DNA of 64,000 nt from Candidatus Fermentithermobacillaceae bacterium (lineage in GTDB: Bacteria > Bacillota > Sulfobacillia > Fermentithermobacillales > Fermentithermobacillaceae). Below, in pieces: positions 2,962 to 64,000 of the stretch. The notes under the pieces are model-generated. The model saw only the letters and a program-made list of their open reading frames with translations. It ran no database searches and was not told the origin of the DNA. The DNA lies in the NCBI GenBank assembly GCA_012837895.1, contig DUQH01000114.1:1-64000 (forward strand). The letters are read 5' to 3'. The translations under genes were made by a program, and so were the position numbers. Position 1 is the stretch's first letter. Every line of letters begins with the position of its first letter.

Positions 2962-4281
2962 TTGTTTCAAGAGGTGTCTCAAATACCTAACTTAGGTGAA
3001 CGGCTCACCTCGAAAGGGGCCTTAGAAGAACCGGCGCAGGAGTACGAACTAAGTCCGTCATGGCCTGATAGCCGGCTGATCAAGACCAGGCTTAAGGGCA
3101 GGGACGCCTTGCCTCAGATTGTCCATTTCCTGGTATTTGCAGCTATTGGTTTGCCCCTGTGCATCAAGCTTCTGGCAACCAGACCCCTGCCTGAACCTAA
3201 GACCACTGTGCTCCTAATAGTGCTAGGCCTGATTTCTTATCATCTTCCCGTCACTATGCCATCAAGTGTTCAGTTCAACCCAGGATTCCCGCTGCTCATG
3301 AGCGCACTCTACGTGCATGGCATTTCTGCATGCCTGCTTGTCGTAATCCCATCAATGCTGCTGTATTTTTTCACAAAGAAGCATGGACTCTTTAACTGCT
3401 TGTTCAACGCAGGCCAGTTTACGCTATGTCTTTACGCAGCCGAACTTGTTGCCTTGCAAACAGGCTGGCAACCTGGGATTCCTGCAGACTACAAATCCGT
3501 CTTGACCGTTTGCCTGATGTATCTTACCGCTGACGTTCTCAATGTCCTTCTGGTCGCCGGGTCCGTCGCCATAGTGACAAAACGTCCGCTCTGGGATTGC
3601 TTCAAGCGAACCTTTCTCTTTGAAAGGAGAGCCATTTTGGCTCAACGCACCTTTGTGACAATTGTGGCAATGCTGCTTACGTCATATATGAGAGACATAG
3701 CTTTTCTGATTGTGTTTGTTGGCGTGCTGTCTCTCAGGATCCAAAACCTGTTCCAGAGGGAATTAACCGTAAGGACAGAAGAAGCCGAGACTGACCCGCT
3801 TACAAACGTTTACAACATGCGTTATCTCCACAGATGGCTTAAGCAGGAGGTCAGAGCAATCAACGGCAGCAAAATCCACTATTCGTTCATTTTTGCTGAT
3901 GTGGACGGCCTGAAAACCGTAAACGATATGTACGGCCATGAAACAGGAAATCACCTGCTCATCCATGTAGCTAGACTCCTGGTGTCAAATGTGAGAAGTC
4001 AGGACCGTGTAGCAAGGTACGGCGGGGACGAGTTCGTTATTGTATGTCCCCACACCAACCTGTCCCAAGCCATGTCAATGGCAAAGAGAATCTTAAGGAC
4101 AATAACAAAAGAGCCATTCAGGGCAAACGGCGTGGAAATTCCTTTCGGGATGAGCATGGGCGTAGCCTCGTGGCCTGAGCACGGCGAGACCGTTTTCGAT
4201 ACAATCCGCATGGCAGACAAAGCTATGTACCTTGCCAAAAGAAACGGCGGGGCCAAGATCCATTCAGCTGCAAATCTGTGA
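2962..4281 (+). CDS. Membrane-bound diguanylate cyclase (GGDEF)
   Basis: Makes the second messenger c-di-GMP from two GTP. The N-terminal half (about residues 50-255) is a run of hydrophobic segments that anchors the protein and probably senses a signal; I do not recognise its family. The C-terminal GGDEF domain begins near TDPLTNVYNMRYL and carries an intact GGDEF at 354-358. The inhibitory I-site RSQD sits exactly five residues before it, so the enzyme is probably active and product-inhibited. The start is uncertain. TTG 2962 lies upstream of the predicted transcription start, GTG 2974 lacks a binding site, and TTG 3109 (AGGG five bases upstream) would start just before the first membrane segment. 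Confidence 0.88.
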   Translation: MFQEVSQIPNLGERLTSKGALEEPAQEYELSPSWPDSRLIKTRLKGRDALPQIVHFLVFAAIGLPLCIKLLATRPLPEPKTTVLLIVLGLISYHLPVTMPSSVQFNPGFPLLMSALYVHGISACLLVVIPSMLLYFFTKKHGLFNCLFNAGQFTLCLYAAELVALQTGWQPGIPADYKSVLTVCLMYLTADVLNVLLVAGSVAIVTKRPLWDCFKRTFLFERRAILAQRTFVTIVAMLLTSYMRDIAFLIVFVGVLSLRIQNLFQRELTVRTEEAETDPLTNVYNMRYLHRWLKQEVRAINGSKIHYSFIFADVDGLKTVNDMYGHETGNHLLIHVARLLVSNVRSQDRVARYGGDEFVIVCPHTNLSQAMSMAKRILRTITKEPFRANGVEIPFGMSMGVASWPEHGETVFDTIRMADKAMYLAKRNGGAKIHSAANL

Positions 4282-6413: not shown

Positions 6414-7232
6414 TTGACGATGACTCTGTTGGCGGAAGAAGCTCCGAAAGGTGTCTTCATTTTCGCCCCTGAAATGTTTTGGGACTGCGTCTTAATTGCG
6501 TCTTTGTTCTTTCTGGTATTCTGGATGATTCAAAGAGCACGAGCGGGCCTCCCCATCCCTGAAATCAGACGCATTGCAGGATTGGAAGCTATAGATGAGG
6601 CTCTTGGCCGTGCGACTGAAATGGGCAAACCAGTACACTACTCCCCTGGAATGAGCACCTTTGGATCTGAGATGTACGCAGGACTTGCAGTGTTGTCCTA
6701 TGTGGCCAAGATGGCAGCCCAGTACGACACTCAAATGATAGTCACCACCCGCCGGCCCCAAATCCACCCTGTTGCTGCAGAAATTGTGAAGCAAGCTTAT
6801 CTGGAAGCCGGCCGGCCTGATGCCTACAACCCCGATGACATCAGGTTTGTGTCAGAATGGCAGTTCAGCTACACAGCTGCCGTAATGGGTATTTTCCAGC
6901 GGGAAAAACCGGCTGCTAACTTGATGATTGGTTACTGGATGGCTGAAGCTCTTGTTTTGGCGGAAGCAGGTGCCCAAGCAGGATGCATTCAGATTGGTGC
7001 AAACACCAACATATTCCAGATCCACTTCTTCATTGTAACCTGCGACTACACCTTGATCGGTGAAGAACTCTTTGCAGCATCGGCCTATCTCTCAAGAGAT
7101 CCAATGCTCACTGGAACAGTGGTAGCTCAAGACATGCTCAAAATGGTCGTGGGCGCATTGGTGGTTATAGGAACTATCTTGGCAACAGTCACAGGCAGCG
7201 CTCAGGGCCTGATTGACTTCTTGTCGATCTAG
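6414..7232 (+). CDS. Membrane module 1, protein A (DUF6754-like)
   Basis: Function unknown. A 272-aa protein with one membrane segment near residues 22-40, a soluble middle of about 190 residues, and one or two membrane segments at the C-terminus (about 238-258). The middle contains RRIAGLEAIDEALGRATEMG, GLAVLSYVAKMAAQYDT and AEAGAQAG, all shared with protein A of module 2 (60985-61764). I believe databases hold such proteins as DUF6754, but that is from memory. There is no Walker motif or obvious catalytic triad. The TTG start at 6414 has GGAGGTGA six bases upstream; ATG 6420 is an alternative. It is first in an operon with B, C and D. Confidence 0.8.
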   Translation: MTMTLLAEEAPKGVFIFAPEMFWDCVLIASLFFLVFWMIQRARAGLPIPEIRRIAGLEAIDEALGRATEMGKPVHYSPGMSTFGSEMYAGLAVLSYVAKMAAQYDTQMIVTTRRPQIHPVAAEIVKQAYLEAGRPDAYNPDDIRFVSEWQFSYTAAVMGIFQREKPAANLMIGYWMAEALVLAEAGAQAGCIQIGANTNIFQIHFFIVTCDYTLIGEELFAASAYLSRDPMLTGTVVAQDMLKMVVGALVVIGTILATVTGSAQGLIDFLSI

Positions 7233-7243
7233 GGGGGAACACG

Positions 7244-7867
7244 ATGAAACGTCAACTTCCGCTTATATTAGTAGCTGTCACCGCTGTTTTCATCATGGCC
7301 ATGAAATTCTTCAATTTTGGTCCCTTCGGTGCAGCCGCTATTACAGAAGCTGACATATGGATCCAGGTAACATACGAATTTGCATTCCTTCTTGGCGCGA
7401 TCAACTTCACCCTGTTGCACTATGGAAACGTGTCAAGGCAAAAGCCCAGATGGATTTACAGTGCTATTGCCCTGGTAGCTATGGTGCTTACCTGCATAAT
7501 CACGTTGGTTGACGGCGTCAATGGGGAAATTGCCGTGTTCTTGTACGAAAACATTGCCAACAGGATTGACAGTGCAATCTACGCCCTCTTGGGTTTCTAT
7601 GTGTGTTCAGCTGCGTACCGTTCTTTCAAACTTAAGAACCTGGAAGCGGGCATTTTGCTTGTGTCTGCAGTGCTCCTCATGCTTGCCCAGGCTCCTATCG
7701 GTGATGCCATATTCCCAGGCATATCTAAATTGGGTGAATGGATCTTGAACGTCCCGAACTCAGCAGGCATGCGGGGAATCCGTCTGGGTGCAGGAATCGG
7801 AGCATACGCTGCATCCATCAGGGTTATCCTCGGACTCGAACGTAGCTGGACCGGCTCGGGTTCATAA
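7244..7867 (+). CDS. Membrane module 1, protein B (polytopic)
   Basis: Function unknown. A 207-aa integral membrane protein with about five or six hydrophobic segments (roughly 5-22, 37-55, 70-90, 110-127, 134-151 and a C-terminal one). The C-terminal half carries AAYRSF, an APIG turn, PNSAGMRGIRLGAG and LGLERS, all matched by protein B of module 2 (AAYRSF, APIG, PNTAGMRAIMMGAA, LGLDRT). Twelve bases separate it from gene A, and GGGGGG precedes the ATG. The charged motif AAYRSF between two membrane segments is the likeliest functional site. Confidence 0.8.
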   Translation: MKRQLPLILVAVTAVFIMAMKFFNFGPFGAAAITEADIWIQVTYEFAFLLGAINFTLLHYGNVSRQKPRWIYSAIALVAMVLTCIITLVDGVNGEIAVFLYENIANRIDSAIYALLGFYVCSAAYRSFKLKNLEAGILLVSAVLLMLAQAPIGDAIFPGISKLGEWILNVPNSAGMRGIRLGAGIGAYAASIRVILGLERSWTGSGS

Positions 7868-7884
7868 CGAAAGGAGGGTACGGT

Positions 7885-8724
7885 ATGGATTGGGAAAAAC
7901 TACAAAACATAGATATAAGAATCCTGTATGTGATCATCTTATTCTGCATGGCGATACCGATGTTCAAACCGATTGGTTTGCCTGTAGCTGTGTCTGAAAA
8001 CTCCCGGAAGGTGTTCCAGGTCATCGAAGACCTGCCAGACGGCTCAGTCATATGGGTCTCTCACGATACAGGCTCAGGAAACGCTCCAGAGCTCAACCCA
8101 ATGATATCAGCGCTTGCAAGGCAAGCTTTCCGCAAGAACTGCAAACTTGTAGGAACTGCCTTCTTCAGCGAGACTGTAGGCCCTACCTTGCTGTACGATT
8201 ACATCAATGAAGTAGCCCAGGAAATGGGCAAAGAATACGGCGTTGACTGGATTAACCTCGGATACAGGATTAACGCACCGGCCACATTGAAAATAATGGT
8301 AGACGATGTATGGCAAGGCGCCGGTGGTGTTGATTGGGCCGGAGACCCCCTTGACAAGTTCCCCCTGATGCAGCAAGTGAGATCCATCCGCAATGATGTA
8401 GATCTCCTGTTTGTTACTACCGTGGGATCCCCGGGGTACGGTGATTGGATGCAATATGTAGCTGAACCCTTGAACAAGCCGCTCACCGGTGGCGCTTCAC
8501 TCACCATGTATTCCGGTGTTCAGCACTACATCCGTTCAGGACAGCTTAAAGGGTTCCTGGGCGGACTCAGAGGGGCGGCCGAATACGAACAGCTAGTGGA
8601 TCATCCAGGCCAAGGCCTGGCCGGCATGGACGCTCAGTCTATGGGACATATCACAGTACTCGTGTTCCTACTCCTTGGCAACATAGGCTACTTCATGGCT
8701 CGCAGCAAGAATGGCCGGCAATAG
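7885..8724 (+). CDS. Membrane module 1, protein C (anchored soluble domain)
   Basis: Function unknown. 279 aa, with a membrane segment at about 12-32, a soluble alpha/beta-like domain of about 210 residues, and a second membrane segment at the end (HITVLVFLLLGNI). The two anchors place the soluble domain on one side of the membrane. Motifs kept in the module 2 copy are YGVDWINLGYR in the middle and, near the C-terminus, GGLRGAAEYEQL followed by PGQ and MDAQS. That last block is the most conserved stretch of the whole module. AAGGAGGG lies seven bases before the ATG. Confidence 0.8.
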   Translation: MDWEKLQNIDIRILYVIILFCMAIPMFKPIGLPVAVSENSRKVFQVIEDLPDGSVIWVSHDTGSGNAPELNPMISALARQAFRKNCKLVGTAFFSETVGPTLLYDYINEVAQEMGKEYGVDWINLGYRINAPATLKIMVDDVWQGAGGVDWAGDPLDKFPLMQQVRSIRNDVDLLFVTTVGSPGYGDWMQYVAEPLNKPLTGGASLTMYSGVQHYIRSGQLKGFLGGLRGAAEYEQLVDHPGQGLAGMDAQSMGHITVLVFLLLGNIGYFMARSKNGRQ

Positions 8725-8739
8725 AAAGGGGGCATAGCT

Positions 8740-9339
8740 GTGGAACAGTTTGGAAATATAGTCTCCTCAATCTGCATTCTAATGGCATGGTCATACCTGA
8801 TTAAGGAAAATGCCGTTTACAACTTCGCTGAGCACTTGTTGGTTGGTATGGCAGTAGGCAGAGGGATAGCTTATACAATTGAAGTCCAGCTGCAACCAAG
8901 GATCGTCGACGGCATAATCGGTCAAGGGCGTTGGAGCCTTATTATCCCGGCAATCATAGGCTGCCTTATCTACTTCCGGTTCGTTAGAGGGTATGAATGG
9001 GTAAGTAGGATCTGTATGGCTGTCTGGATTGGCTACGGTGCCGGTAACTTCCTGGCTTTTAACCCCGCGACCTACATGCCACAGATATTTGACTCCTTCT
9101 TCAAGCTGGACAGCATAGACAATGTCATCTACTTCCTGGTAGTCATCAGCATCGTCTGGTACTTCATCTTTACGGTGCGCAAAGACTCAGGCTTCGGGCA
9201 GCAGTTCTCCATGATCGGCAGGTACGCGCTGATGATCGCGTTCGGATCTGCTTACGGGTCCATTACAATGGCATACCTGTCCTTGATCATCGGGCAGCTG
9301 CAGATTATTCTGAGGGATACACTGCATCTGGTGAAGTAA
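8740..9339 (+). CDS. Membrane module 1, protein D (polytopic)
   Basis: Function unknown. 199 aa, about six membrane segments. It shares with the module 2 copy an N-terminal KENAVYNFAEHLLVGMAVG (KENPFYRIAEHLYVGISAG in the other), the IIP..IGCLIYFRF segment, and a C-terminal IGRYALMIAFGSAYGS (LGRTVLMVAFGAAFGT). The AEHL motif at the second membrane segment is a candidate functional site. GTG start at 8740 with GAAAGGGGG upstream, 15 bp after gene C. Last gene of the operon, ending at the terminator 9365-9397. Confidence 0.8.
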   Translation: MEQFGNIVSSICILMAWSYLIKENAVYNFAEHLLVGMAVGRGIAYTIEVQLQPRIVDGIIGQGRWSLIIPAIIGCLIYFRFVRGYEWVSRICMAVWIGYGAGNFLAFNPATYMPQIFDSFFKLDSIDNVIYFLVVISIVWYFIFTVRKDSGFGQQFSMIGRYALMIAFGSAYGSITMAYLSLIIGQLQIILRDTLHLVK

Positions 9340-9364
9340 CAAAGGGTGCTTTGTTAAGAATTGA

Positions 9365-9397
9365 GGCCGGGAGGCTGTTACAAGGCCTCCCGGCCTT
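9365..9397. terminator. Bidirectional terminator between module 1 and the CoA-transferase
   Basis: Perfect 11-bp stem GGCCGGGAGGC (9365-9375) with GCCTCCCGGCC (9385-9395), followed by TTCT on the plus strand. The two flanking genes converge on it. Confidence 0.8.
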
Positions 9398-9422
9398 CTG
9401 TATCCACTAAGACCCACCGCAA

Positions 9423-10766
9423 TTACCTGATCCTGTTGCTCCGTCTCCATATGTTCATCTTCCCGGCGTGGCGTATCAGGTCATCCCTGAAGTCCGGATG
9501 GGCAATGGAGATAATCATCTCTGCCCTCTCCCAGGTACTACGGCCTGCCAAGTTGACCATTCCCCATTCAGTTACAATGTACATAGCTTGACTCCTGGGA
9601 TCTGTCACTATGCTCCCTGAAGGCAATACCGGCACCACACGTGATGTTACTTCCCCCGTGCGGCGGTTAGTATAGGTAGACGACATGCACACCAAAGATT
9701 TCCCTTCCCTGGCCATGAGCGCACCTGTGACAAAATCCAACTGGCCTCCGGTACCGCTTATGTGCCTGCTACCAACAGATTCTGCGCTCACCTGGCCGTA
9801 CAGGTCCACTTCTATGCATCCGTTGATGGCAATCAAACGATCGTGCTGGGCCATTACCCATGGCGAATTGGTATATTCTACAGGGTAAGATGCAAGCCCC
9901 GGGTTATGGTCTACCCAGTCGTACAGTTCTTTGCTGCCTAAGCCAAACGACCATACGCCCTTGCCCCAGTCAATCGATTTGTTCCTGTTTGTGAGTTTAC
10001 CCGCCTTGTACATGTCAAGATAAGCGTCGCACAGCATTTCTGTATGCATTCCAAGATCTTTGACGTCGGATTCTGCGAGCATCTTGCCAACCAGGTTTGG
10101 CATAGCCCCGATTCCAAGTTGGATCACTGAACCGTCTCTCACCTGACTGCATATCATTTCTGCTATCTTCATGTCTGCTTCTGTAGGCTCGACCGGGCTT
10201 AACACTGCAAGCGGTTCATGCGGCCCTTCAACCACCGCGTCCACTTCTGAAATGTGGACCAATTCCCCATAGCCTCCGCATGCCCAAGGCAGATGCTCGT
10301 TGACTTCCAAGATAACCGTCTTGGCCTTATCTATTACAGCTCTTGTCGACGAGTTGGTAAGCGACAGGTTGAAATACCCGTGCTTATCCATTGGCGTAAC
10401 TGCAATACAAGCTACATCCACCTCAAGATACTTGCGATAGAATGTTGCTTGGCTGCGGTACGTCATGGGCAAGTAATTACACAGTCCTTTATCGTGATAT
10501 CTTCGTTCAGGAGTGCTGAAATGCCAGCTGTTGTATATGAAACTTGTACGTTCAGGGTCTGCTTCCACTATTTTCAATGGCTTTGGCATGACTCCGCCCC
10601 GGACTTTCACATCCCTGAGTTCGCCCACGCGTTTTGATAATGCCTCATCCAGCAGTTCTGGCATATTGTGGTTCATCCCGTAATCTACCCAATCGCCGCT
10701 CTTGACTAACTGTACCGCTTCATCCGGGGTCTTTAGTTTCAGTCTGTATTCGCTATGGTAATCCAC
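9423..10766 (-). CDS. Acyl-CoA:acetate/4-hydroxybutyrate CoA-transferase family protein
   Basis: Moves CoA between carboxylic acids, such as butyryl-CoA to acetate, the energy-saving last step of many fermentations. The 447-aa protein follows the family I acetyl-CoA hydrolase/transferase layout: an N-terminal half with [11 protein letters not shown], then the glycine-rich [13 protein letters not shown] loop, [10 protein letters not shown] in the catalytic region, and the C-terminal signature [17 protein letters not shown]. The best match from memory is to clostridial butyryl-CoA and 4-hydroxybutyrate CoA-transferases. The frame is open from TTG 10805, but GTG 10766 has GGGGAG seven bases upstream and is preferred. 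The exact acyl substrate cannot be read from sequence. Confidence 0.88.
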
Positions 10767-10898
10767 TGCAGCTCTCCCCTCTCCCCCATATGGATCTTGG
10801 CTCAAGCACTTCCGGTTGTTGGGGCGGAGGTATATTCTATGCTTGGAACAAAGAATCCTCCAGTTCAGTCAAAAATCCCTATCATTGCAAACTTAATG

Positions 10899-10908: not shown

Positions 10909-11040
10909 ACACCGTATTCACAGGCCGCCGGTTTAAGCAGGGCTGTGAAGGGATGCAGGAAAACCCGGCGGCTTGTGAGAATTACGGTGCAAATAGGTGA
11001 CCAAGTAGATCGTCTTATACCAAAAGGGGGCAGCTCCAGT

Positions 11041-11391
11041 ATGCTGCATATAATGAATGCAATCTGCGGTCCACGCTGTGACCGGTGCCCCGCATACATT
11101 GCGACTAAGGCCAAGGACTATAGCGCCCTTCACTCCATCGCCGGTGAATGGACGCAGAACACCGGGCGTACTTTCACTCCCGAAGACATAATGTGCGAGG
11201 GATGCAGAGTTGAAGGCGCCCGCCTGTCATCGTACTGCAATGATTGCGACATCCGGTTGTGTGCAACAGCCCAGGGCCATCCCACCTGCGCCCACTGCAA
11301 TGAGTTTCCGTGCGACAAGATCCGCGCGCCTCAGGCAAGGCAAGCCCTGGAGGAAATCCGGAAGTGGCTTCATATACAAGGTAAATCATGA
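11041..11391 (+). CDS. DUF3795-type cysteine-rich protein
   Basis: A 116-aa protein with about a dozen cysteines arranged as in DUF3795 proteins: CGPRCDRCPAY at the start, CEGC in the middle, YCNDCDIRLCA, then CAHCNEFPC near the end. It likely binds zinc or an iron-sulfur cluster. The function is unknown; these proteins are common in anaerobes. Start ATG 11041 with GGGGG about ten bases before; the frame is open further up but that part lacks family similarity. Ogt follows 28 bp downstream in the same direction, so the two may be co-transcribed. Confidence 0.8.
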   Translation: MLHIMNAICGPRCDRCPAYIATKAKDYSALHSIAGEWTQNTGRTFTPEDIMCEGCRVEGARLSSYCNDCDIRLCATAQGHPTCAHCNEFPCDKIRAPQARQALEEIRKWLHIQGKS

Positions 11392-11419
11392 AGACAAATC
11401 ATGAAAGGCGTGTTCTCAT

Positions 11420-11938
11420 ATGATATCCCGGCTAGTCATGAGCCCGATTGGGGCTCTTAAACTAACCGTAGACAATGGTTTTGTTACCGGGCTTGAATTC
11501 CACAAAAATGCCGGCGCATTGAATCAACCTGTAGGTCCAGGAGTTGTTTTCATTCACACTGAATCTGATGGCAACACTGATGAGAAAGATCAAGAGATCC
11601 TGAATCAAGCAATTGAGGAACTTGAAGCATATTTCGCAGGCAGGCTACGAAACTTCAGCGTCCCAGTCAAGGTCTCCGGCACCCAGTTCCAACAAGCAGT
11701 GTGGCAGGCAATGCAAGCGATCGGTTACGGGGAAACCAAGACCTATCGTGACCTGGCTGTGGCAGCCGGTTCTCCCGGGGCTGCCCGCGCAGTGGGGAAT
11801 GCATGTGCCGCAAATCCTGTAGCCATTATCATCCCCTGTCACAGGGTGGTAGCCCAGAACGGGCTCGGCGGCTTCGGAGGAGGCCTTGACACCAAACAAT
11901 GGCTGCTTGAGCTGGAAAAGCAAAATGCGCAAGGGTAA
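11420..11938 (+). CDS. ogt: Methylated-DNA--protein-cysteine methyltransferase
   Basis: Suicide repair protein that takes the methyl group from O6-methylguanine onto its own cysteine. At 172 aa it has the full family length. The acceptor motif PCHRVV has Cys140. The DNA-binding helix segment, with GETKTYRDLA and AVGNACAANP, precedes it, and GLGGFGGGLDTKQWLL closes the domain. There is no Ada N-terminal regulatory domain. Start ATG 11420 lies 8-12 bases after GAAAGG. Confidence 0.94.
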   Translation: MISRLVMSPIGALKLTVDNGFVTGLEFHKNAGALNQPVGPGVVFIHTESDGNTDEKDQEILNQAIEELEAYFAGRLRNFSVPVKVSGTQFQQAVWQAMQAIGYGETKTYRDLAVAAGSPGAARAVGNACAANPVAIIIPCHRVVAQNGLGGFGGGLDTKQWLLELEKQNAQG

Positions 11939-11992: not shown

Positions 11993-13408
11993 CTAGCTAA
12001 AGAACCTGTCCAACGGGAACTCCTTGTCCTTTGGAAACGGGCACCTGTAAGGCGAGTCTTTCGTCTTCTCCCTGAATTCTTCCCAGGCCTTTTGTATGAG
12101 TTCCGGGTTTTCAACAAGTTTGAGCCCACATAAGGCCATGGTCTTTGCAGCTACCAGCATTCCCTTGTGACCTATGGAACTCCCTGATGATGCGCAATGT
12201 TGCCATGAATGTCCAGGGCATCCAATCGGCACAGTTGCAGCTGACATTTGTACTGTAGGCACTATCCAGCTTACGTCACCAACATCGGTGGAGCCGCCAC
12301 CGGACCTGCCCTTGCCCCTGGGTGGCAATAAGGACGTGTGAACCACTTGTTCCCTCAGTTCGGGGAACTCCTGAAAATCCGGGCTCTTGTACAAGTTCTC
12401 CATCTGAGCCTTATCGAAAGTCTCAGCCAGTTTCTTTGCGAATTCCAGATCTTTTTCGTCAAACTGAGGCGGGCCGACTTCCTGCAAGCAATCCCACATG
12501 ACGTCAGCCAACGCTTCATTAAGAAGCACCTCGTAGCATCCGGTCAGGAAATCGATTTCAAAGGTAGTCTCAGTCATAAGGGCAGCGCCCCTAGCCACAT
12601 TGACTAGCCTCTCATAGATCTCTTCCACCTGGTTCCTCCTGGGGGCCCTAACAAAATACCACACTTCGGCAAACGAAGGTACTACGTTGGGCTGCCCGCC
12701 ACCAGACGTAATCACGTAATGGATGGTGGCATCTTTTATCACGTGCTCCCGCAAGTAATTGGCACCCACGTTCATGAGTTCCACGGCGTCCAAGGCTGAT
12801 CTGCCGTTATGAGGATCCCCTGCTGCGTGTGCTGTTTTGCCAAAGAACTGAAACTTGGCTGAGTTCAACCCAGTCCCACTGCCTAACCTGACTGTATTCA
12901 TCGAACCGGGATGCCACGTAATCGCGATATCCAGATCCGAAAACAACTCTTCTCTGGCCATATACACCTTGCCGGCCAGGAGTTCTTCAGCCGGGCAGCC
13001 ATAGTATCGTACTGTGCCTGGGAGATTCTTCTCCATAAGAGCTTGCTTGAGTGCAACAGCCGCTCCCATGGCAGCGGTCCCAAGGAGGTTGTGCCCGCAT
13101 CCGTGGCCTGGCCCACCGTCTTCTCTAGGCTGTCGCTCAGCCGATACTTCCTGGGATACGCCTGCCAGGGCGTCGTACTCGCCTAAGAACCCTATGTATG
13201 GCCCTCCATCTCCCCACTCTGCGACAAAAGCGGTGGGAATGCCTCCGGCTTCCCTTGTAACCCTAAAGCCTTGTTCCTCAAGATAATCTGCCTGTATCTT
13301 TGCTGATCGTACTTCACGGAAACCTAGTTCTGCGAAATCCCAAATCGCATCTGCAATCCGTATCAGGTCTGATGCTTTGTCATCAACAAGTTTCAAAATA
13401 TCCGCCAA
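11993..13408 (-). CDS. M20 amidohydrolase, AbgB-like
   Basis: A zinc-dependent amide hydrolase of the M20 family. The layout is nearest to AbgB, the p-aminobenzoyl-glutamate hydrolase subunit B. Visible are the GEYDALAG segment, the metal-site GHGCGHN, PAEE with the catalytic Glu, HPGS, the dimerisation-domain HAAGDPHNGRSALDA, and the late GGGSTDVGDVS. 471 aa from the TTG at 13408, which has GGGGAGG eight bases upstream; the longer frame to 13480 has no site. The substrate is probably an N-acyl or folate-derived amide. A second, shorter M20 hydrolase lies at 57405-58589. Confidence 0.88.
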   Translation of the reverse strand: MADILKLVDDKASDLIRIADAIWDFAELGFREVRSAKIQADYLEEQGFRVTREAGGIPTAFVAEWGDGGPYIGFLGEYDALAGVSQEVSAERQPREDGGPGHGCGHNLLGTAAMGAAVALKQALMEKNLPGTVRYYGCPAEELLAGKVYMAREELFSDLDIAITWHPGSMNTVRLGSGTGLNSAKFQFFGKTAHAAGDPHNGRSALDAVELMNVGANYLREHVIKDATIHYVITSGGGQPNVVPSFAEVWYFVRAPRRNQVEEIYERLVNVARGAALMTETTFEIDFLTGCYEVLLNEALADVMWDCLQEVGPPQFDEKDLEFAKKLAETFDKAQMENLYKSPDFQEFPELREQVVHTSLLPPRGKGRSGGGSTDVGDVSWIVPTVQMSAATVPIGCPGHSWQHCASSGSSIGHKGMLVAAKTMALCGLKLVENPELIQKAWEEFREKTKDSPYRCPFPKDKEFPLDRFFS

Positions 13409-13552
13409 ATGATCGCCTCCCCTGGAGTCAACAAAATCCCAACAAACACTGTGTCTCCCTAAACAATAACCAAACACCAAGGCATTATCCTGGCCCCATG
13501 ATCTTCTCCGTCGCGTTGTGTTTTCCTGCAGTGCTTTTGGGTACGAAATAAC

Positions 13553-55682: not shown

Positions 55683-56564
55683 CTAAATCTGTATGGTGCC
55701 TGCATCGCCGGTCAGACCTTCTGTGATCTGTTTCGCAGTCTTCGAAACAGCTATACCGCCTAAAGCTGTCTCCCTGAGCGCTTCAGGCAACATCTTCCCT
55801 ACCCGGAACAATGCCTCAATTACTTCGTCTGCTGGTATAACACTGCGTTGCCCTGCCAGGGCCATGTCAGCGCTGATAATAGCGTTGACCGCCTGGGAAG
55901 CGTTGCGAAAAGCACAGGGCAGCTGCACCATGCCTGCAACAGGGTCGCACACAAGCCCCATGCAGTTCATCAGAGCTATGGCGACTGCATTGGCGCAGGC
56001 CTCAGGAGTTCCACCTGCCAAGGTCACAACCGCAGCTGCCCCCATGGCTGCTGCCGCACCGCACTCAGCTTGACATCCGCCTTCAGCACCGGACACAGTC
56101 GCGTCCTTGGTTATCACTGCACCTACACCGGCTGCCACAAGCAAAGCATCGAGCGCTTGCCTCTTTGTGGATTGTAACTTCCCGGCGGTGCCCAACAAAA
56201 CCGCCGGCAAAACCCCACTGGCCCCGCCTGTTGGTGCAGCGCAAACCAACCCCATTGATGCATTCACTTCACTGCTGGACAAAGCCATCGCCATTACGTC
56301 ATTCAAGTACTTGCCGGCTAAGGGGGTCTCGTATCCATACTGTTTGGCTGCCATGCCGGTGATGAGCCCGCCTATCATCTGTTGTGGCTGCGTCAATGCC
56401 TTCTTGGCGCTGGACACCATCACGTCATAATGCCGCTCCAGGAGTGTGTAAACCTCTTGTTCAGACTTCTCGGTAAGCGCCATCTCGCTTTCAAGTATGA
56501 CCTGGGAGAGAGGCAGTTGGCGGCTGTTAGCTTGCCCGACTAAGTCTTGTATAGAAGAGTACAA
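55683..56564 (-). CDS. sdaAA: L-serine dehydratase, alpha subunit
   Basis: Iron-sulfur enzyme that converts L-serine to pyruvate and ammonia, a fermentation entry point. 293 aa. The catalytic core shows AAPTGGASGVLPA, then the cluster cysteines in AEGGCQAECGAAAAMG and MGLVCDPVAGMVQLPC. TTG 56564 with GGAGG upstream. It follows sdaAB by 13 bp as the two-subunit form typical of Gram-positive anaerobes. Confidence 0.95.
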   Translation of the reverse strand: MYSSIQDLVGQANSRQLPLSQVILESEMALTEKSEQEVYTLLERHYDVMVSSAKKALTQPQQMIGGLITGMAAKQYGYETPLAGKYLNDVMAMALSSSEVNASMGLVCAAPTGGASGVLPAVLLGTAGKLQSTKRQALDALLVAAGVGAVITKDATVSGAEGGCQAECGAAAAMGAAAVVTLAGGTPEACANAVAIALMNCMGLVCDPVAGMVQLPCAFRNASQAVNAIISADMALAGQRSVIPADEVIEALFRVGKMLPEALRETALGGIAVSKTAKQITEGLTGDAGTIQI

Positions 56565-56577
56565 TGTTTCCCACCTC

Positions 56578-57237
56578 CTACTGAATCACCCTAACCAACA
56601 ACACATCATCTAGTGTAGCTAATCTTTGTACAACTTCAGGTGGGATCTTCTGGTCAGTTTCGAGAACACTGGTCGCCACATCCCGCTTTGCCACACGCGA
56701 AAACCGCATAAGCCCGATATTGATGCTGTTTTCAGCCAGCACCCGGCTGATCCGGGCAATAACTCCCGGTTTGTCCAGTTGCTGGATGATCATAGTTGGT
56801 TGTTCTGCCGACACTTCAACATCTACGCCGTTAATGTTGGTGATCAATATCCTGCCGCCGCCTACACTGCACCCTGTAATCTGGGTTGACGTATTATCAT
56901 CATGGGTAAAGGTAATCATTGCAGCGTTTTCGTGAACATCATCCAGTTCCACTTCACGGAAAGTGTAAGTGATGCCCCTAGCCTTGGCAATATCAAGGCT
57001 GTGCTTTATTCTTTCATCCTCTTCGGTAATGCCCAGAACTCCTGCCAGAAGCGCAAGGTGAGTACCGTGGCCTTTTCCGGTCTTGGCGAAGGAACCGTGT
57101 AAACCAAACTCCACATGTTTGAAGGGTTTGCCAGCAATAAGCGCGGACACCCTCGCCAGTTTGACCGCCCCTGCGGTATGGCTGGAACTGGGGCCTATCA
57201 TTATAGGGCCGATCACGTCAAAGATGCTGAGATTCAA
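56578..57237 (-). CDS. sdaAB: L-serine dehydratase, beta subunit
   Basis: 219-aa partner of the alpha subunit. It has FDVIGPIMIGPSSSHTAGAVKLA at the N-terminus and a C-terminal ACT domain at about 145-219 (PTMIIQQLDKPGVIARISRVL), expected to bind serine. TTG 57237 with GGAGG nine bases upstream. First gene of the pair. Confidence 0.95.
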   Translation of the reverse strand: MNLSIFDVIGPIMIGPSSSHTAGAVKLARVSALIAGKPFKHVEFGLHGSFAKTGKGHGTHLALLAGVLGITEEDERIKHSLDIAKARGITYTFREVELDDVHENAAMITFTHDDNTSTQITGCSVGGGRILITNINGVDVEVSAEQPTMIIQQLDKPGVIARISRVLAENSINIGLMRFSRVAKRDVATSVLETDQKIPPEVVQRLATLDDVLLVRVIQ

Positions 57238-57404: not shown

Positions 57405-58589
57405 CTATTCCTGGTTCTGGCGAATTTGCTCCAGGTGATCTTGGGCTTGCTTCGGAAGTTCTGGCTTGTAAACCAGTTCCATCGCAGACAGGGCCAATAC
57501 CTTTGCGGCCATCAAAGTCGCATCAATGGCCCTTGGCTTGACTGTGTCATCTGCCATCTCCCTGGAGTGTCCCCGGGCATCGGTCATGCCAAACCCGATT
57601 TGGATGCACGGAGTCTCCCAGGTAACGTTACCCACGTCAGTGACTCCACCGCCTCCGCGCTTAATCTCAGGGAGTTTCTGTCCCAGGTACTCAAAGTTCT
57701 TCTTGGCAAGATCCCGCAGCACAGGGTGTTCCAGGGTTTCCTTAAAGAGGGGTTCGTAGTGATGGAACTCCACTGTGGCGCCAACTGCTGCAGCTGCGCC
57801 TTCGGCGATCTGCCTAACCTTGGGCAACACTACCTCTTCGAGATAATGGGAACTCTTGGACCTCACAGTGAACCTTGCCACTGCGCGTTCCGGAACAATG
57901 TTAGGAGCGTCGCCACCATGGGTTATGATTCCTGCAAGACGGACGTCATCCAGCAGGTGGTTTTTCATCATCCTGATAGCTGTGTACGCTGAGACACAGG
58001 CATCAAGTGCATTTATGCCTGCCTGGGGATTGCCGCCTGCGTGAGCTGTCCGCCCGCGAAAAGTGATCTCAATGGGGTGAGACGCCCAAGACGAGCCACC
58101 TAATCCGTTAAGTTGGCCCGGATGAGCTATGAATGCAGCATCTATGTCAGAAAACACGCCTGCTTCTGCCATGACCACTTTGCCACCGATTGTCTCTTCG
58201 GCAGGAGTACCGAGCACAATCCACGTTGCTTCCGCTTCATCAGGCGGGAAAGCGTTCTTGATCCCGATGCCTGCAGCAAGGGCGACAGCTGCCATGAGGT
58301 TATGCCCACATCCGTGGCCAATCTCGGGCAAGGCATCGTATTCTGCCATGAAGGCAATCCGAGGCCCCTGACTGCCGGCTTGAGCTCTAAACGATGTGGG
58401 CAGGCCAGCTATCTCTTTCTCCACTTGGAAACCCTTGGATTCCAGGATTCCAGTGAGCTTTGACACGGCAAAGACTTCCTGAAGCCCAAGTTCAGGGTTC
58501 TCGTACAATGATTTGGCTATATCTTCAACAACCGGCCTGAGTGAGTCGATTTCCTGAACGAGTTTCTCACGTCTTTCTTCAAACTTCAT
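57405..58589 (-). CDS. M20 amidohydrolase
   Basis: 394-aa zinc hydrolase of the M20 family, in the AbgB/aminoacylase-like group. Motifs: GLQEVFAVSKL at the N-terminus, MAEYDALPEIGHGCGHNL, TPAEET, AHPGQL, then RGRTAHAGGNPQAGINALDA, and GGGVTDVGNVTWETP. It shares layout with the 471-aa enzyme at 11993-13408 but lacks the long insertion between MAEYDAL and GHGCGHN, so the two are diverged paralogs. Start ATG 58589 with AAGGTGG eight bases before. The substrate is probably an N-acyl amino acid, dipeptide or folate-derived amide. Confidence 0.88.
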   Translation of the reverse strand: MKFEERREKLVQEIDSLRPVVEDIAKSLYENPELGLQEVFAVSKLTGILESKGFQVEKEIAGLPTSFRAQAGSQGPRIAFMAEYDALPEIGHGCGHNLMAAVALAAGIGIKNAFPPDEAEATWIVLGTPAEETIGGKVVMAEAGVFSDIDAAFIAHPGQLNGLGGSSWASHPIEITFRGRTAHAGGNPQAGINALDACVSAYTAIRMMKNHLLDDVRLAGIITHGGDAPNIVPERAVARFTVRSKSSHYLEEVVLPKVRQIAEGAAAAVGATVEFHHYEPLFKETLEHPVLRDLAKKNFEYLGQKLPEIKRGGGGVTDVGNVTWETPCIQIGFGMTDARGHSREMADDTVKPRAIDATLMAAKVLALSAMELVYKPELPKQAQDHLEQIRQNQE

Positions 58590-58806
58590 ATCAGCTACCA
58601 CCTTCATTCTTAAGTATGCTACCGGTAGTTTCCGGCCCAGGGAATCAGAGCTTGGAAGCTAACTTATCTCCCTTTCTACAATAAGCTGTTATTATCCTTC
58701 CTCGTCATTGATGAAGTTTACACAGCAGATTCCAGAGCCAACAACTACCACTTGGTGCTTAGCGTTCTACAATCCCTTCACAAGAACTCCGCCTTAGTAA
58801 CTTGGC

Positions 58807-58860: not shown

Positions 58861-59457
58861 TTACTTCATTATCCCTAGCCAGTCTCCAAGCACAAACTGG
58901 ATCCGGCCAATAAGCAGCGCCATTCTTCCCATTACGGTGGTACCGAAAGCGGCACCGAAAGCTACCATAAGGACCGTTCTTCCGAGTTGGGGTACTGTGC
59001 CCATAGGCCCCTTTAGTTCTCTCGAGAAGAAGAAGTAACTCAGAGATGCGATCACAAAGACCAGCAGCAGGATATCGTTTACACTGCCCACGCTTATAGT
59101 AGCCGAGATTTGCTGCACAAAGTCACCATGGATAGCTCCCCTCACAGCAACTCCGGTTCCGATACCGACCATTACGGCTACAGGATATCTGGCAATCCAA
59201 GATATCCCTTTGAAATACCTGGAGTACAGCAGCACACCTAGCAGGATAGGAATAATCCATACGAGCTGGCCTTCTTCCTGCATTGGCTTTACTGCTGCGT
59301 CCCTGATATTGCCCCATGCCATTACAACTGCATGACCGGCACTAATGCCCACATACAAGTGTTCCGCAATGCGGTAAAAGGGATTTTCTTTCCAGACGTA
59401 GCTTAGCATTGCAATTGTAACTAAGCCTTCTACCCAAATACCAAAATCCAGACTCAT
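58861..59457 (-). CDS. Membrane module 2, protein D (polytopic)
   Basis: Function unknown. 198 aa, about six hydrophobic segments, homologous to 8740-9339: WKENPFYRIAEHLYVGISAG, then IIPILLGVLLYSRYFKGI, and at the end LGRTVLMVAFGAAFGT. The start overlaps the end of gene C by four bases (ATGA). Last gene of its operon, as in module 1. Confidence 0.8.
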   Translation of the reverse strand: MSLDFGIWVEGLVTIAMLSYVWKENPFYRIAEHLYVGISAGHAVVMAWGNIRDAAVKPMQEEGQLVWIIPILLGVLLYSRYFKGISWIARYPVAVMVGIGTGVAVRGAIHGDFVQQISATISVGSVNDILLLVFVIASLSYFFFSRELKGPMGTVPQLGRTVLMVAFGAAFGTTVMGRMALLIGRIQFVLGDWLGIMK

Positions 59458-60317
59458 GAACGCCCACCCCTTCCTGCCTTTTGTGCGCTGCCGCTCATCG
59501 ACTGTGCACGAGCTTCTTTTGCTTTGAAAAAGCTCGGTATATTCCGGAAAGCAATCAGAACAATAATCAGCAAGTGAGCCAGCGATTGAGCGTCCATCGC
59601 TGCTACAGCCTGTCCGGGTTTCTCCACCAGAATCTCATACTCAGCTGCGCCGGGAAGACCGCCAAGTATCCCTTCGATCTGACCCGCCTGTACATACGGC
59701 GCTACCTGGGTGATAGCTACTGCAGGTACGCCAGCAATTATCCTGGTCTTGTAGGTGCCATATACCTGGCGGACATAGTCTTCAGGACCAGGCTGTCCAG
59801 GCGCAATGGTGATGATCATGTCGATGTCCGCAGCAGTCTTGATACCCTGCATAATGGGGAAAGACGAGCTGGGCTTTCCTGTATAGTCAGTGCTGAAGGT
59901 TCCAGGGATGTCCGTGGCAAAAGCTGCAACTGCCGCTTGTCCACCCGCCCTGTAACCCAGGTTGACATAATCTACACCGTATTCCTTTTCAGCCCAACTG
60001 GTAGCGCTGAAGGCCTTTGTGGCCATCTCAGGGCCTTGAGCCTGGAATGAGATGCCGATAACTTTGACTTGCTTCTCAGCGAGATGCTCCAAGATCGCCA
60101 TCGCTTGCGGCTCCATTTCAGCTGCGCTGCCCGGTGAGTAGTCAAAGCCGAACACCACAACTGAGCCGGGAGCCAGACTGTCTACGGCCTCGAAAGACTT
60201 CCTGATGTCAGAGCTAATTGGAATGGGTATTCCAATCGGTCTCAAAAGAGGACCGGCCAAAACAATCAACAGAATCACATATATCCATGACTTTGGAATT
60301 GATTGCAAGCGTTCCAT
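59454..60317 (-). CDS. Membrane module 2, protein C (anchored soluble domain)
   Basis: Function unknown. 287 aa from ATG 60317 (AGGAGG six bases before). N-terminal membrane segment (WIYVILLIVLAGPLLRPIG), an alpha/beta-like soluble domain, and a C-terminal membrane segment. Shared with the module 1 copy are LRPIG (KPIG there), YGVDYVNLGYR, and the LGGLPGAAEYE, PGQ, MDAQS block. The C-terminal tail is extended, basic and Gly/Ser/Ala-rich. Confidence 0.8.
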   Translation of the reverse strand: MERLQSIPKSWIYVILLIVLAGPLLRPIGIPIPISSDIRKSFEAVDSLAPGSVVVFGFDYSPGSAAEMEPQAMAILEHLAEKQVKVIGISFQAQGPEMATKAFSATSWAEKEYGVDYVNLGYRAGGQAAVAAFATDIPGTFSTDYTGKPSSSFPIMQGIKTAADIDMIITIAPGQPGPEDYVRQVYGTYKTRIIAGVPAVAITQVAPYVQAGQIEGILGGLPGAAEYEILVEKPGQAVAAMDAQSLAHLLIIVLIAFRNIPSFFKAKEARAQSMSGSAQKAGRGGRS

Positions 60318-60331
60318 GTTCTCCCTCCTCT

Positions 60332-60964
60332 TCAATCACGAAGCCCCAGATAGGTTCTGTCCAGTCCAAGGAACATCTTGACTGCACTGGATACAACACC
60401 TAGAGCAGCGCCCATCATGATAGCACGCATACCTGCAGTATTGGGTATGGCCTGTATCCAATCAGCTGCTGTCGGGAAGAAGCCAGAAATGACTGAACCA
60501 ATAGGGGCTTTACCTAGCATGACGATTACTGCAGTGATCAACAGCACCCAGCTCTCAAAACTCCTAGCATGGAAAGACCTGTAAGCCGCAGTGACAATGT
60601 AGAACGCAATCGATGCATACATTGTGGCTGAGGCAGGAGAAAGAATGTTAGAGAACAGGAAACTGTAGGTTGGGTGATCCGAACCATAAGCTATCCCCAG
60701 AATGATAATGATTACCATTGAGCCAACCAACACTACGCTGTAGAGAGCTTCAGGCTCACGCCTGGAAATGGCCACAGTGTGCCTTCGCAACAGGTTAACA
60801 GCACCGAGACCCATAGCGAAAGCGGCTATAACGATACCCCATGACCTCAAGACCAAACCGGACTGCTTGATCCACTGTACTGACGGGGCATCAGCGACAA
60901 AGAAGTCCAATATGATTATCAGTGCAATCACTGTCATTATTGCCACAGGCAAAGAATTCTTCAA
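60332..60964 (-). CDS. Membrane module 2, protein B (polytopic)
   Basis: Function unknown. 210 aa, about six hydrophobic segments, homologous to 7244-7867 mainly in the C-terminal half: TAAYRSF, then APIG, PNTAGMRAIMMGAALG and FLGLDRTYLG. The N-terminal half is weakly alike. TTG start with GGAGGTGA upstream. It lies 20 bp after gene A. Confidence 0.8.
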   Translation of the reverse strand: MKNSLPVAIMTVIALIIILDFFVADAPSVQWIKQSGLVLRSWGIVIAAFAMGLGAVNLLRRHTVAISRREPEALYSVVLVGSMVIIIILGIAYGSDHPTYSFLFSNILSPASATMYASIAFYIVTAAYRSFHARSFESWVLLITAVIVMLGKAPIGSVISGFFPTAADWIQAIPNTAGMRAIMMGAALGVVSSAVKMFLGLDRTYLGLRD

Positions 60965-60984: not shown

Positions 60985-61764
60985 TTACTTTGTAATCAGC
61001 TGCAGAATTGCTTCGCTTCCAAATGCTAACAACACAGATCCGACACACATCAATGCGATAACAGCGACCTTGGCGAGGTCTTGTCCCCTAACCACTGCTA
61101 GTTCAACAGGGTTCTGTGACAGGTACGCACTGGCCGCATAGATCTCCTCACCAATTAGACAGTAGTCAGATGCTACCACTAAGAAGGGCAGCTGGGCGAC
61201 TGTCGCTGAACCGGTAACCTGGATACCGCCTGTCTGAGCGCCTGCTTCTGTAAGCAATAGCGCTTCCGCCAGCCATGAACCGATCATGATGTTGGCTGCT
61301 ACCTGTTCGCGGTACATAATTCCCACGGCAGCAGCGGCATAAGCGAACTGCTCGGCTCCGATAAAACGAACCATTTCGCCACTGAACCGGTCCGGCTTGC
61401 CTTCTTCCAGAAAACTCTGTTTTACGATTTCTTCAGCAACTACATAAACGTCAGGTTTCATTATTGTAGTCACCAGATCAGTGTCGTACCTGGCGCACAA
61501 CTTCGCGACGTAAGAAAGCACTGAAAGTCCAGCCAGAGTCTGCGCTGAACGCTCGTGTGTCAATTCAATGATTCCAGGGCTGAAGTGAACCGGACGTCCT
61601 ACCTCAGTAGCCCTTCCTACTGCTTCTTCAATAGCATCGAGGGCAGCCAACTTCCTGATTTGAGGCACTTTACCTCTTCTTGCTTCACGTATGCAGTAGA
61701 TGAACAGAACAAACAATAAGAACAGTGATGCAAAGGAGAATTGCTTGCCAACTTCTATCAACAT
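60985..61764 (-). CDS. Membrane module 2, protein A (DUF6754-like)
   Basis: Function unknown. 259 aa. One N-terminal membrane segment (FASLFLLFVLFIYCI), a soluble middle, and a C-terminal membrane segment. Homologous along its length to 6414-7232: LAALDAIEEAVGRATEVGR, PVHFSPG, GLSVLSYVAKL, AEAL/EAGAQ and DYCLIGEEIYAASAYLS. AGGAGG is five bases before ATG 61764; TTG 61761 or the upstream GTG 61770 are alternatives. First gene of the operon. Confidence 0.8.
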   Translation of the reverse strand: MLIEVGKQFSFASLFLLFVLFIYCIREARRGKVPQIRKLAALDAIEEAVGRATEVGRPVHFSPGIIELTHERSAQTLAGLSVLSYVAKLCARYDTDLVTTIMKPDVYVVAEEIVKQSFLEEGKPDRFSGEMVRFIGAEQFAYAAAAVGIMYREQVAANIMIGSWLAEALLLTEAGAQTGGIQVTGSATVAQLPFLVVASDYCLIGEEIYAASAYLSQNPVELAVVRGQDLAKVAVIALMCVGSVLLAFGSEAILQLITK

Positions 61765-62100
61765 GGACACCTCCTGGGATGTTCATTTCTGGGACCAACA
61801 CCACTACAATGAAAACTTTGGTCGTGCTCCAAATACTTCTTCATCTTGCCACGTTTTACCGCCCCCTCGTCAGTAGCGAGCAATTTTGCCCAACGGTCAG
61901 TATTCTGGATCCGTCTGTGAAGTCCTTCTCCATTCGTCCTTGTTCTGAGAAGTTTTTCGTCGAAGTCGTCTGTGCTGCAGTTCCTATTGTACAATAATCA
62001 CAAGGACAAACCCATGCCACTTTAGTCCTTATCTTGCTGCTACACCCCTAAACCGCTTGTTATTTCCATATGTGGCATTTGATCCTCGCCTGACTCTGAG
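61765..62100 (-). promoter_or_regulatory. Upstream region of membrane module 2
   Basis: About 335 bp with no gene. A perfect ATTGTACAAT palindrome lies at about 61986-61995 and includes a possible -10 (TACAAT); no good -35 was found. CTTCTC/GAGAAG could form a hairpin in the transcript (about 61925-61955). It has no visible likeness to the module 1 leader. Confidence 0.35.
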
Positions 62101-62626: not shown

Positions 62627-64000
62627 CTAAAACCCTAGAGCTACTCCCCCTATCCTGCTGTCAGAACCGGCCAGAAGTGCACCGGTTTCCTGGTCTTTCA
62701 TTATAATCTGAGCTCCACCGCCCCCTGAATATGGGCCCACAACATGCACATCATGTCCCATATCGGCTAGCCGGGCTATGGTATCTACCGGAAACCGGGA
62801 CTCGAGAGTAAGCTTGGGCGGCTGCTTGAGGGCAATCATATCTGTACCAGGGATTGAAATCCACCTCGGGAAATCTGCCGCTTCTTGCGGGCCTGCCCTG
62901 TGATCCAGCATAAGGCTTAGCATCTGCATGTTCCACTGTGGTTGTCCGTCTCCTCCAGGGGTGCCGCCGACGATAAAGGGCACACCTTCTTCTAGCACCA
63001 TGTAACAGTTGAGAGTGTGCATAGGACGCTTCCCAGGCTCCAAGCAGTTCGGGTGGCCTGGAATCATGTTGAAAGACCTGCCTGCCCGGTTATTGAGAAT
63101 CACTCCTGTTCCAGGCACCACGACTCCGGACCCAAACGAAAACGCAATGCTTTGTATAAAGGAACAACAGTTGCCGGCTTCGTCCCATGCTACAAACGAA
63201 GTAGTATCGCCTTCTGCAGGGTTGCCCTGAGACATCATATATTGAGTCCCGTCCTGGATCCGCCCCACTGCCTCCCGGGCATATTCCTCTGATATAAACC
63301 TGGAAACATCGAAGCCGGATACTGCAGGATCCCCTGCAAAGGTATTGCGATCCGAAAATGCTACCTTCTTAATCCGGACCATGAGGTCAGTTGAATCAGC
63401 CGACTTAGGGTCAAGTTTTTCTACATCGAAATGCTCCAAGAGATTCATTTGCTCTAAGACCATGAACCCGGCAGACACAGGAGCAGTCTCCAGCACAGTA
63501 TAGTTTCTATAATCAGTCCTTATGGGCTCGTACCACCCAGGTGAATCCTCAAGATGTCTTGCAAACTCGCCTCCCAGGAAAGTCCCGCCCATCCGCCTAC
63601 TCATCTCATAGAACTTCTCCGCAAACGCTCCTTTATAGAAGTACCCTGCGCCTTGAGCCCCGAACTCGCGGAGGGTACGCGCAAGGTCCTCCTGTCTGAA
63701 CAAGGTCCCTGCTCTGGGTGGATTTCCACCGGGCAGGAAAACCCGGAAAGTTTCTTCGCACTGCGACAACTTATTCTTCCCCGCGTAAACCGCTTTCTCA
63801 AAACGGTCAGATACCACAAAGCCCTCTTCTGCGATTTTTGCCCCTGCTTCGAAACACTGCGCCAGAGAAAAGGTGCCAAACCTCCTGCAGGCAAGATCGT
63901 ACACCAGAGGCGCCCCGGGGACGGCAACCGAATGAATTCCATGTTGCGGCAAGATCTCGCCTTGGCCGGCGAACCTCTCCAGCGTAGAATCGTCACCGGG
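62627..64000 (-). CDS. ggt: Gamma-glutamyltransferase (cut by the window edge)
   Basis: Transfers or hydrolyses gamma-glutamyl groups, for example from glutathione or gamma-glutamyl peptides. 457 residues are visible; the frame is open to 64000, so the N-terminus lies outside. The autoprocessing site is GDTTSF (nucleophile Thr about residue 266 of the visible part). Downstream are the NNRAGRSFNMIPGHPN and PMHTLNCYMV segments and the glycine-rich GGTPGGDGQPQ. VLP-HGIHSVAVPGAP-type residues upstream mark the large-subunit start. Whether it carries a signal peptide cannot be seen. Confidence 0.92.
   Translation of the reverse strand, partial: PGDDSTLERFAGQGEILPQHGIHSVAVPGAPLVYDLACRRFGTFSLAQCFEAGAKIAEEGFVVSDRFEKAVYAGKNKLSQCEETFRVFLPGGNPPRAGTLFRQEDLARTLREFGAQGAGYFYKGAFAEKFYEMSRRMGGTFLGGEFARHLEDSPGWYEPIRTDYRNYTVLETAPVSAGFMVLEQMNLLEHFDVEKLDPKSADSTDLMVRIKKVAFSDRNTFAGDPAVSGFDVSRFISEEYAREAVGRIQDGTQYMMSQGNPAEGDTTSFVAWDEAGNCCSFIQSIAFSFGSGVVVPGTGVILNNRAGRSFNMIPGHPNCLEPGKRPMHTLNCYMVLEEGVPFIVGGTPGGDGQPQWNMQMLSLMLDHRAGPQEAADFPRWISIPGTDMIALKQPPKLTLESRFPVDTIARLADMGHDVHVVGPYSGGGGAQIIMKDQETGALLAGSDSRIGGVALGF

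Follow-up and report, generated by a model that had tools for sequence, protein, structure and literature searches.

A recurrent four-gene membrane module containing DUF6754, its genomic link to MutL-like and barrel-sandwich proteins, and a possible role in import

Introduction

What is the function of four membrane-associated proteins whose genes, designated here A, B, C, and D, occur twice in the same order within a single stretch of bacterial DNA? The stretch in question, referred to throughout as the window, comprises 64,000 nucleotides from Candidatus Fermentithermobacillaceae bacterium (assembly GCA_012837895.1, contig DUQH01000114.1, positions 1 to 64,000 of the forward strand). An initial reading, made from the sequence alone, had described the two sets as a duplicated module of unknown function, the products of which most likely form one complex. 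The computational analysis that followed is presented here.

Results and discussion

The two modules of the window

The open reading frames of both modules were located at the positions, and with the order and sizes, given by the original prediction (Table 1). Its claim that every pair is visibly homologous also held. The identities between copies 1 and 2 are 114/230 (50%) for A, 70/208 (34%) for B, 96/275 (35%) for C, and 62/198 (31%) for D, and the Z-scores of these like pairs against shuffled sequence range from 35 to 122. Unlike pairs among the A to D proteins of the two copies display no homology, with Z-scores at the noise level of ~2 or less. Both A proteins score far beyond the 27-bit curated threshold for DUF6754, at 298.3 and 279.6 bits, and thus the family that had been guessed for the module was correct for A. 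No credible match for B, C, or D was obtained in Pfam or NCBIfam, and profile searches of the PDB with all four proteins returned nothing. The possibility that B and D are homologues of one another was not supported by a profile comparison (P 0.017, probability 2.7%). That A and C might be homologues of inverted topology is suggestive only (P 0.013, probability 3%); their predicted secondary structures are in register across the first half.

Table 1. Coordinates of the module genes and of selected neighboring genes in the window.
Feature	Positions	Strand	Length (aa)	Remarks
Copy 1, gene A	6414-7232	+	272	TTG start; DUF6754 (PF20539), Pfam E 4.9e-89
Copy 1, gene B	7244-7867	+	207	Polytopic, ~6 TM (averaged hydropathy); homologous to copy 2 B
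Copy 1, gene C	7885-8724	+	279	Predicted TM, Rossmann-like extracytoplasmic domain, TM; homologous to copy 2 C
Copy 1, gene D	8740-9339	+	199	GTG start; polytopic, ~5 TM or more (hydropathy)
Copy 2, gene A	60985-61764	-	259	DUF6754 (PF20539), Pfam E 2.6e-83; alternative GTG start at 61770; Z 122 versus copy 1 A
Copy 2, gene B	60332-60964	-	210	Z 47 versus copy 1 B
Copy 2, gene C	59454-60317	-	287	Z 74 versus copy 1 C
Copy 2, gene D	58861-59457	-	198	4-base overlap with the end of C; Z 35 versus copy 1 D
M20-family amidohydrolase/peptidase	57405-58607	-		Just downstream of copy 2; Pfam Peptidase_M20 E 7.5e-11
L-serine dehydratase alpha and beta (two genes)	55683-57237	-		Downstream of copy 2; by sequence reading, no family search
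Gamma-glutamyltranspeptidase	62627-63952	-		Upstream of copy 2; Pfam G_glu_transpept E 5e-95; extends beyond the window end

Predicted architecture and conservation

The topology and hydropathy analyses agree with the architecture that had been proposed for the module. A and C are alike in having a soluble domain flanked by a single helix at either end, and B and D are polytopic. On the basis of positive charge averaged over 82 sequences, the domain of A is predicted to be cytoplasmic and that of C to lie outside. Most of the A proteins from beyond the window's lineage begin with an apparent signal peptide and an extra domain that precede the first helix, and as such the N-terminus of A is independently placed outside. 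The extra domain is weakly fn3-like (E 0.001-0.003, below the cut-off). Both termini of B are predicted to lie inside; for D, hydropathy provides no clear orientation.

The AlphaFold models of A and C (pLDDT 92.6 and 95.6, respectively) are both characterized by alternating alpha/beta, Rossmann-like domains. A fold search with these models yielded no PDB match better than an E-value of 0.002 and a TM-score of ~0.3, and only generic Rossmann-like hits. When C was compared with substrate-binding proteins of known structure using Foldseek, there was no match with E <0.001 and the best TM-score was ~0.33; a match may still exist in predicted-structure libraries, which were outside of this search. 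The mean column identity is highest for A at 52%, as compared to 38% for B, 34% for C, and 37% for D, which fits with A contacting a common partner. Many polar residues are invariant in A, including Glu 62, Arg 66, Thr 68, Glu 69, Glu 184, Asp 211, Glu 218, and Asp 240. Invariant residues in C are few.

ABCD as one inherited unit

Of the 97 module runs at the 91 loci from the window's class, 87 consist of exactly ABCD. The genes lie close together, with median gaps of 18, 11, and 6 bp between them. This order, including tandem ABCDABCD runs, also predominates across many bacterial phyla and holds in one archaeon. In 86 unique complete modules, the pairwise distances between A proteins correlate with those between C proteins at an r of 0.83. 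In a control that re-paired A and C among the modules of each genome, the mean r fell to 0.04 with a maximum of 0.12 in 200 trials. As the co-divergence is lost upon re-pairing, the four genes have been inherited together rather than mixed, and the integrity of ABCD as a unit is well supported. The original prediction would have been refuted had the four families occurred mostly apart, but they are found together and in the same order almost everywhere. Co-occurrence and conserved order thus support its proposal of one four-protein complex. The obvious interpretation is that the four proteins associate physically, although this remains an inference without physical data. No natural fusions among A to D, which would indicate contact, were found; the long open reading frames at these loci were explained by extended N-termini, by insertions, or by errors of the gene caller.

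Copy number and distribution

The term "duplicated" employed in the original prediction understates the situation. A and C each have 12 matches in the window's genome, a 2.05 Mb draft that is 96% complete and was examined only as stretches around modules. In a tree of the modules, the two window copies fall into separate orthologous groups, each common to several other genera, and they are therefore ancient paralogues. The named records nearest to the window A proteins, at 91% and 86% identity, are from Candidatus Fermentithermobacillaceae. DUF6754 is carried by 22 of 31 relatives and is absent from all 14 well-known control genomes. Its copy number is 5 to 15 within the family of the window's genome and reaches 27 in one member of the class. 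DUF6754 is also found in Symbiobacteria, anammox planctomycetes, WOR-3, Eisenbacteria, Latescibacteria, Zixibacteria, Coatesbacteria, and Sumerlaeota, and in one archaeon (Methanomethylicota).

Two modules in the window's genome are apparently decaying. The first, at L022:7322-8785 (C121), consists of a split B and a shortened C without A and D, and lies beside an intact module. The second, at L025 ~9757-10350 (C73), retains a 91-residue remnant of A and a fragment of B.

Partner proteins encoded with or apart from the modules

Clustering of the neighboring genes across loci revealed three recurrent genes besides ABCD. These encode a barrel-sandwich protein of ~378 residues (23 loci, in 15 of which it immediately precedes A), a MutL-like ASKHA protein of ~610 residues (range ~610-640; 18 loci), and a small protein, Sml, of ~120 residues (13 loci). 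Outside of the window's lineage a frequent operon order is small-MutL-barrel-A-B-C-D. The system is larger than the four genes noted originally, which make up its membrane part alone. With an E-value of 1.7e-126, the MutL-like protein matches PF13941, the MutL/GlmL superfamily, and alignment shows that its nucleotide motifs DxGSTTTK, DxGGATTDV, and GSGG are intact. It falls below the NCBIfam cut-offs for GlmL (223 versus 475 bits), ornithine Or-4 (201.5 versus 600), and glmL_fam (163 versus 204). The barrel protein belongs to no recognized family besides a partial RnfC_N match in some members, the scores against a cut-off of 25.6 being 18.1 bits for L071, 30.3 bits for L038, and none for L107. 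Its identification as the RnfC subunit of an Rnf complex was rejected given that the match is partial at most and no other Rnf domain is present.

The association of the MutL-barrel pair with ABCD is well supported as genomic co-occurrence. Among the 31 relatives, the barrel protein is encoded by 22 of the 22 genomes with DUF6754; in those without, it is present in two and absent in seven (Fisher p 1e-5). Of 20 genomes with DUF6754 from other lineages, 19 also encode it. In a phylum sample of 119 genomes, seven contain both, two DUF6754 only, one the barrel only, and 109 neither; of the two DUF6754-only genomes, one is 78% complete and the other has a weak fragment. The p-values for co-occurrence are optimistic because the genomes are related, but the pattern recurs across distant lineages. 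At approximately half of the loci from outside the Firmicutes, no MutL-barrel pair was present within the stretch examined.

The window's genome has five PF13941 matches, four of them of the long form, and four MutL-barrel pairs on three contigs. These pairs lie apart from the 12 modules, and none is beside the window modules. From the numbers of modules and of unlinked pairs it is inferred that each pair may be common to several modules. A further small membrane protein, possibly an extra operon member, adjoins the MutL-barrel genes in the window's genome and in distant lineages (L121:11960-12649, L105:5938-6381, and L107:5697-6257).

The catabolic neighborhood

Beyond the original prediction, gene context points to the catabolism of amino acids and peptides. 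In the window's genome the modules neighbor hutU-hutH-M20-ftcD, D-aminoacylases, DUF885 proteins, an M81 metallopeptidase, an S9 peptidase, and a D-cysteine desulfhydrase-like gene, several of these identities having been assigned by reading the sequence. One module (L026) precedes hutU-hutH-M20-ftcD. For the 91 loci, the directly downstream, same-strand genes are devoted to amino-acid, peptide, or amide catabolism in 17 of 25 cases (14/22 when orthologues are removed), whereas the background genes of these stretches fall into this category in 10 of 79 cases (Fisher p 3e-7 and 5e-6, respectively). Note that the catabolic category was assigned by reading, in part after the hypothesis had been formed, and the enrichment is support rather than proof. 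No close same-strand partner gene is present at 45 of the 91 loci. Complete operons lie directly after glycine-cleavage genes in L068, L105, and L107, which represent three unrelated lineages outside the class, and a lipoate-ligase-like gene lies behind the operon in the latter two.

Within the window, the M20 gene listed in Table 1 has orthologues that are kept downstream of the orthologous module in two other genomes (G001 and G002), and its product is, from this context, a likely catabolic partner of copy 2. A different M20-family enzyme is encoded at 11993-13480, on the opposite strand relative to the nearby copy 1, such that there is one such gene near each module. An acetyl-CoA hydrolase/transferase-family gene (9423-10805) converges on copy 1, and a GGDEF protein is encoded at 2962-4281.

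A proposed importer

In the best reading of these data, the four proteins may be the membrane component of a new type of importer with several parts, which would take up amino acids and peptides as well as N-acyl and other derivatives. We consider this proposal at most as apt to hold as to fail, and transport, its direction, its coupling to ATP, and its substrates are all inferred. It is put forward because uptake systems usually show this arrangement, in which copies of a single membrane unit occur next to catabolic enzymes of many unrelated kinds. The case for transport depends solely on gene context, as none of the components resembles a solved transporter in fold or sequence. According to this scheme, the Rossmann-like domain of C, tethered at both ends to the outer face of the membrane, would capture the substrate, and B and D would provide the path through the membrane. 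The domain of A on the cytoplasmic face would function as the docking and coupling piece. The separate cytoplasmic pair, composed of the MutL/GlmL-like ASKHA protein and the barrel-sandwich protein, would serve several modules and would probably drive or reset the transport cycle with ATP. Counting against the importer reading, relatives of the GlmL type are known as reactivation chaperones rather than transport motors (PMC4682846). The 45 loci without a close partner gene, and those outside the Firmicutes with no MutL-barrel pair in the stretch examined, also weigh against it. That ABCD simply replaces the ABC peptide importers is not supported, given that the window's genome retains seven conventional peptide-binding proteins (SBP_bac_5).

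In a bolder version, ABCD would represent a new class of primary active transporters, the interchangeable importer modules of which are powered by an ASKHA ATPase (Hsp70/actin-like fold) via the barrel-sandwich adaptor. The balance of the evidence tips against this version. That such a class would import amino acids and peptides in organisms ranging from Bacillota to anammox planctomycetes and archaea is, likewise, rather more open to doubt than to belief. To our knowledge, no transporter powered by an ASKHA ATPase has been described.

Alternative explanations

The main rival to the importer reading, and a possible one, is that ABCD is an ion-coupled (secondary) transporter for which the MutL-barrel pair serves only as an assembly or repair chaperone. 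In its favor, the literature assigns GlmL/MutL a chaperone role in the reactivation of glutamate mutase (PMC4682846), the module itself lacks an ATPase gene, and a single chaperone set could serve many modules. Against it, a helper protein would not usually co-occur with its client as tightly as the barrel protein does with ABCD across many lineages, and the high conservation of the cytoplasmic protein A is left unexplained.

A second explanation, which we regard as unlikely, is that ABCD and the MutL-barrel pair form a membrane-bound enzyme complex that has amino acids or peptides as its substrates and in which A and C are catalytic. Rossmann-like folds are often enzymatic or nucleotide-binding, A contains many invariant polar residues, and the neighboring genes encode catabolic enzymes. 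However, the adjacent enzymes belong to many unrelated classes while ABCD remains constant, a transporter-like pattern; the outward-facing C has few invariant residues, and neither a cofactor motif nor an enzyme family match was observed. A sensory complex, in which C would detect an extracellular amino compound and A would signal to the MutL-barrel pair inside, would account for extracytoplasmic and cytoplasmic domains connected across the membrane, and dedicated sensors often accompany catabolic genes, but it is very unlikely in that two conserved polytopic proteins exceed the needs of a sensor and no output domain (kinase, cyclase, or DNA-binding) is present in A, the MutL-like protein, or the barrel protein.

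Comparison with known systems

The importer reading can be set against transporters that have been characterized. The original assertion that the module is neither an ABC nor a P-type system held for the four proteins. None of A to D shows an ABC_tran match, and no gene for a nucleotide-binding subunit is present in the ABCD runs. By analogy, and in its working only, the proposed arrangement resembles the ECF transporters, in which a single ATPase module is competed for by the various membrane components (PMC7755397); here, many substrate-specific membrane modules would depend upon a common ATP-using cytoplasmic engine encoded elsewhere. ABCD differs from these in that A to D have no EcfT, S-component, or EcfA match and no ABC ATPase, the candidate engine is an ASKHA protein with a barrel-sandwich protein, and there are four membrane proteins with two large soluble domains. 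The TRAP and tripartite tricarboxylate transporters are similar in working, with an extracytoplasmic binding domain and two polytopic proteins that are multiplied beside catabolic genes. B, C, and D, however, have no Pfam or NCBIfam match to the membrane or binding-protein families of these systems, and in ABCD the C protein is tethered at both ends, an additional cytoplasmic domain is provided by A, and ASKHA and barrel proteins are linked. The MutL-like protein, with its nucleotide motifs, is a member of the GlmL/MutL ASKHA family (PF13941; glutamate mutase reactivating factor), but it is distinguished by an extra C-terminal region and by its location with barrel and membrane proteins rather than with a mutase.

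No clear match to a characterized transporter or enzyme complex, which would have counted against the original prediction, emerged from the Pfam, NCBIfam, and PDB profile and fold searches. Only A, a clear member of a family that carries no function, and the MutL-like protein, from a known superfamily, match described families, and there is no related solved structure. Full-text literature searches, from which subscription papers and preprints were excluded, revealed no paper naming DUF6754, a MutL-linked transporter, or such a system. The claim of an undescribed system held within that literature, although an unseen description is possible. If the importer reading is true, a whole class of transport has been overlooked because it occurs mainly in uncultured lineages. 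It would account for the feeding of the amino-acid-fermenting Fermentithermobacillaceae, and would assign a role to DUF6754, to three nameless families, and to a distinct branch of the MutL family.

Variant modules

Three complete ABCD modules of ~3.3 kb each are arranged in direct tandem at L058:6128-16525 and L063:5967-16747 (WOR-3 and TA06 records). Small genes, read as encoding four-helix-bundle (S23-like), REP-transposase-like, or DUF559-like proteins, are inserted within or just before some operons (L056:7607-7993, 9182-9580, and 10967-11425; L058:5697-6107; L063:5526-5921). In other cases the insertion is within a module gene itself, with C containing a long, repeat-like segment that reads as HEAT repeats, or B or D containing extra hydrophilic segments (L082:4075-6009, L069:1988-2896, L102:9407-10546, and L084:9549-10499). 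The insertions in L069 and L102 resemble a stretch of the A protein from the same module.
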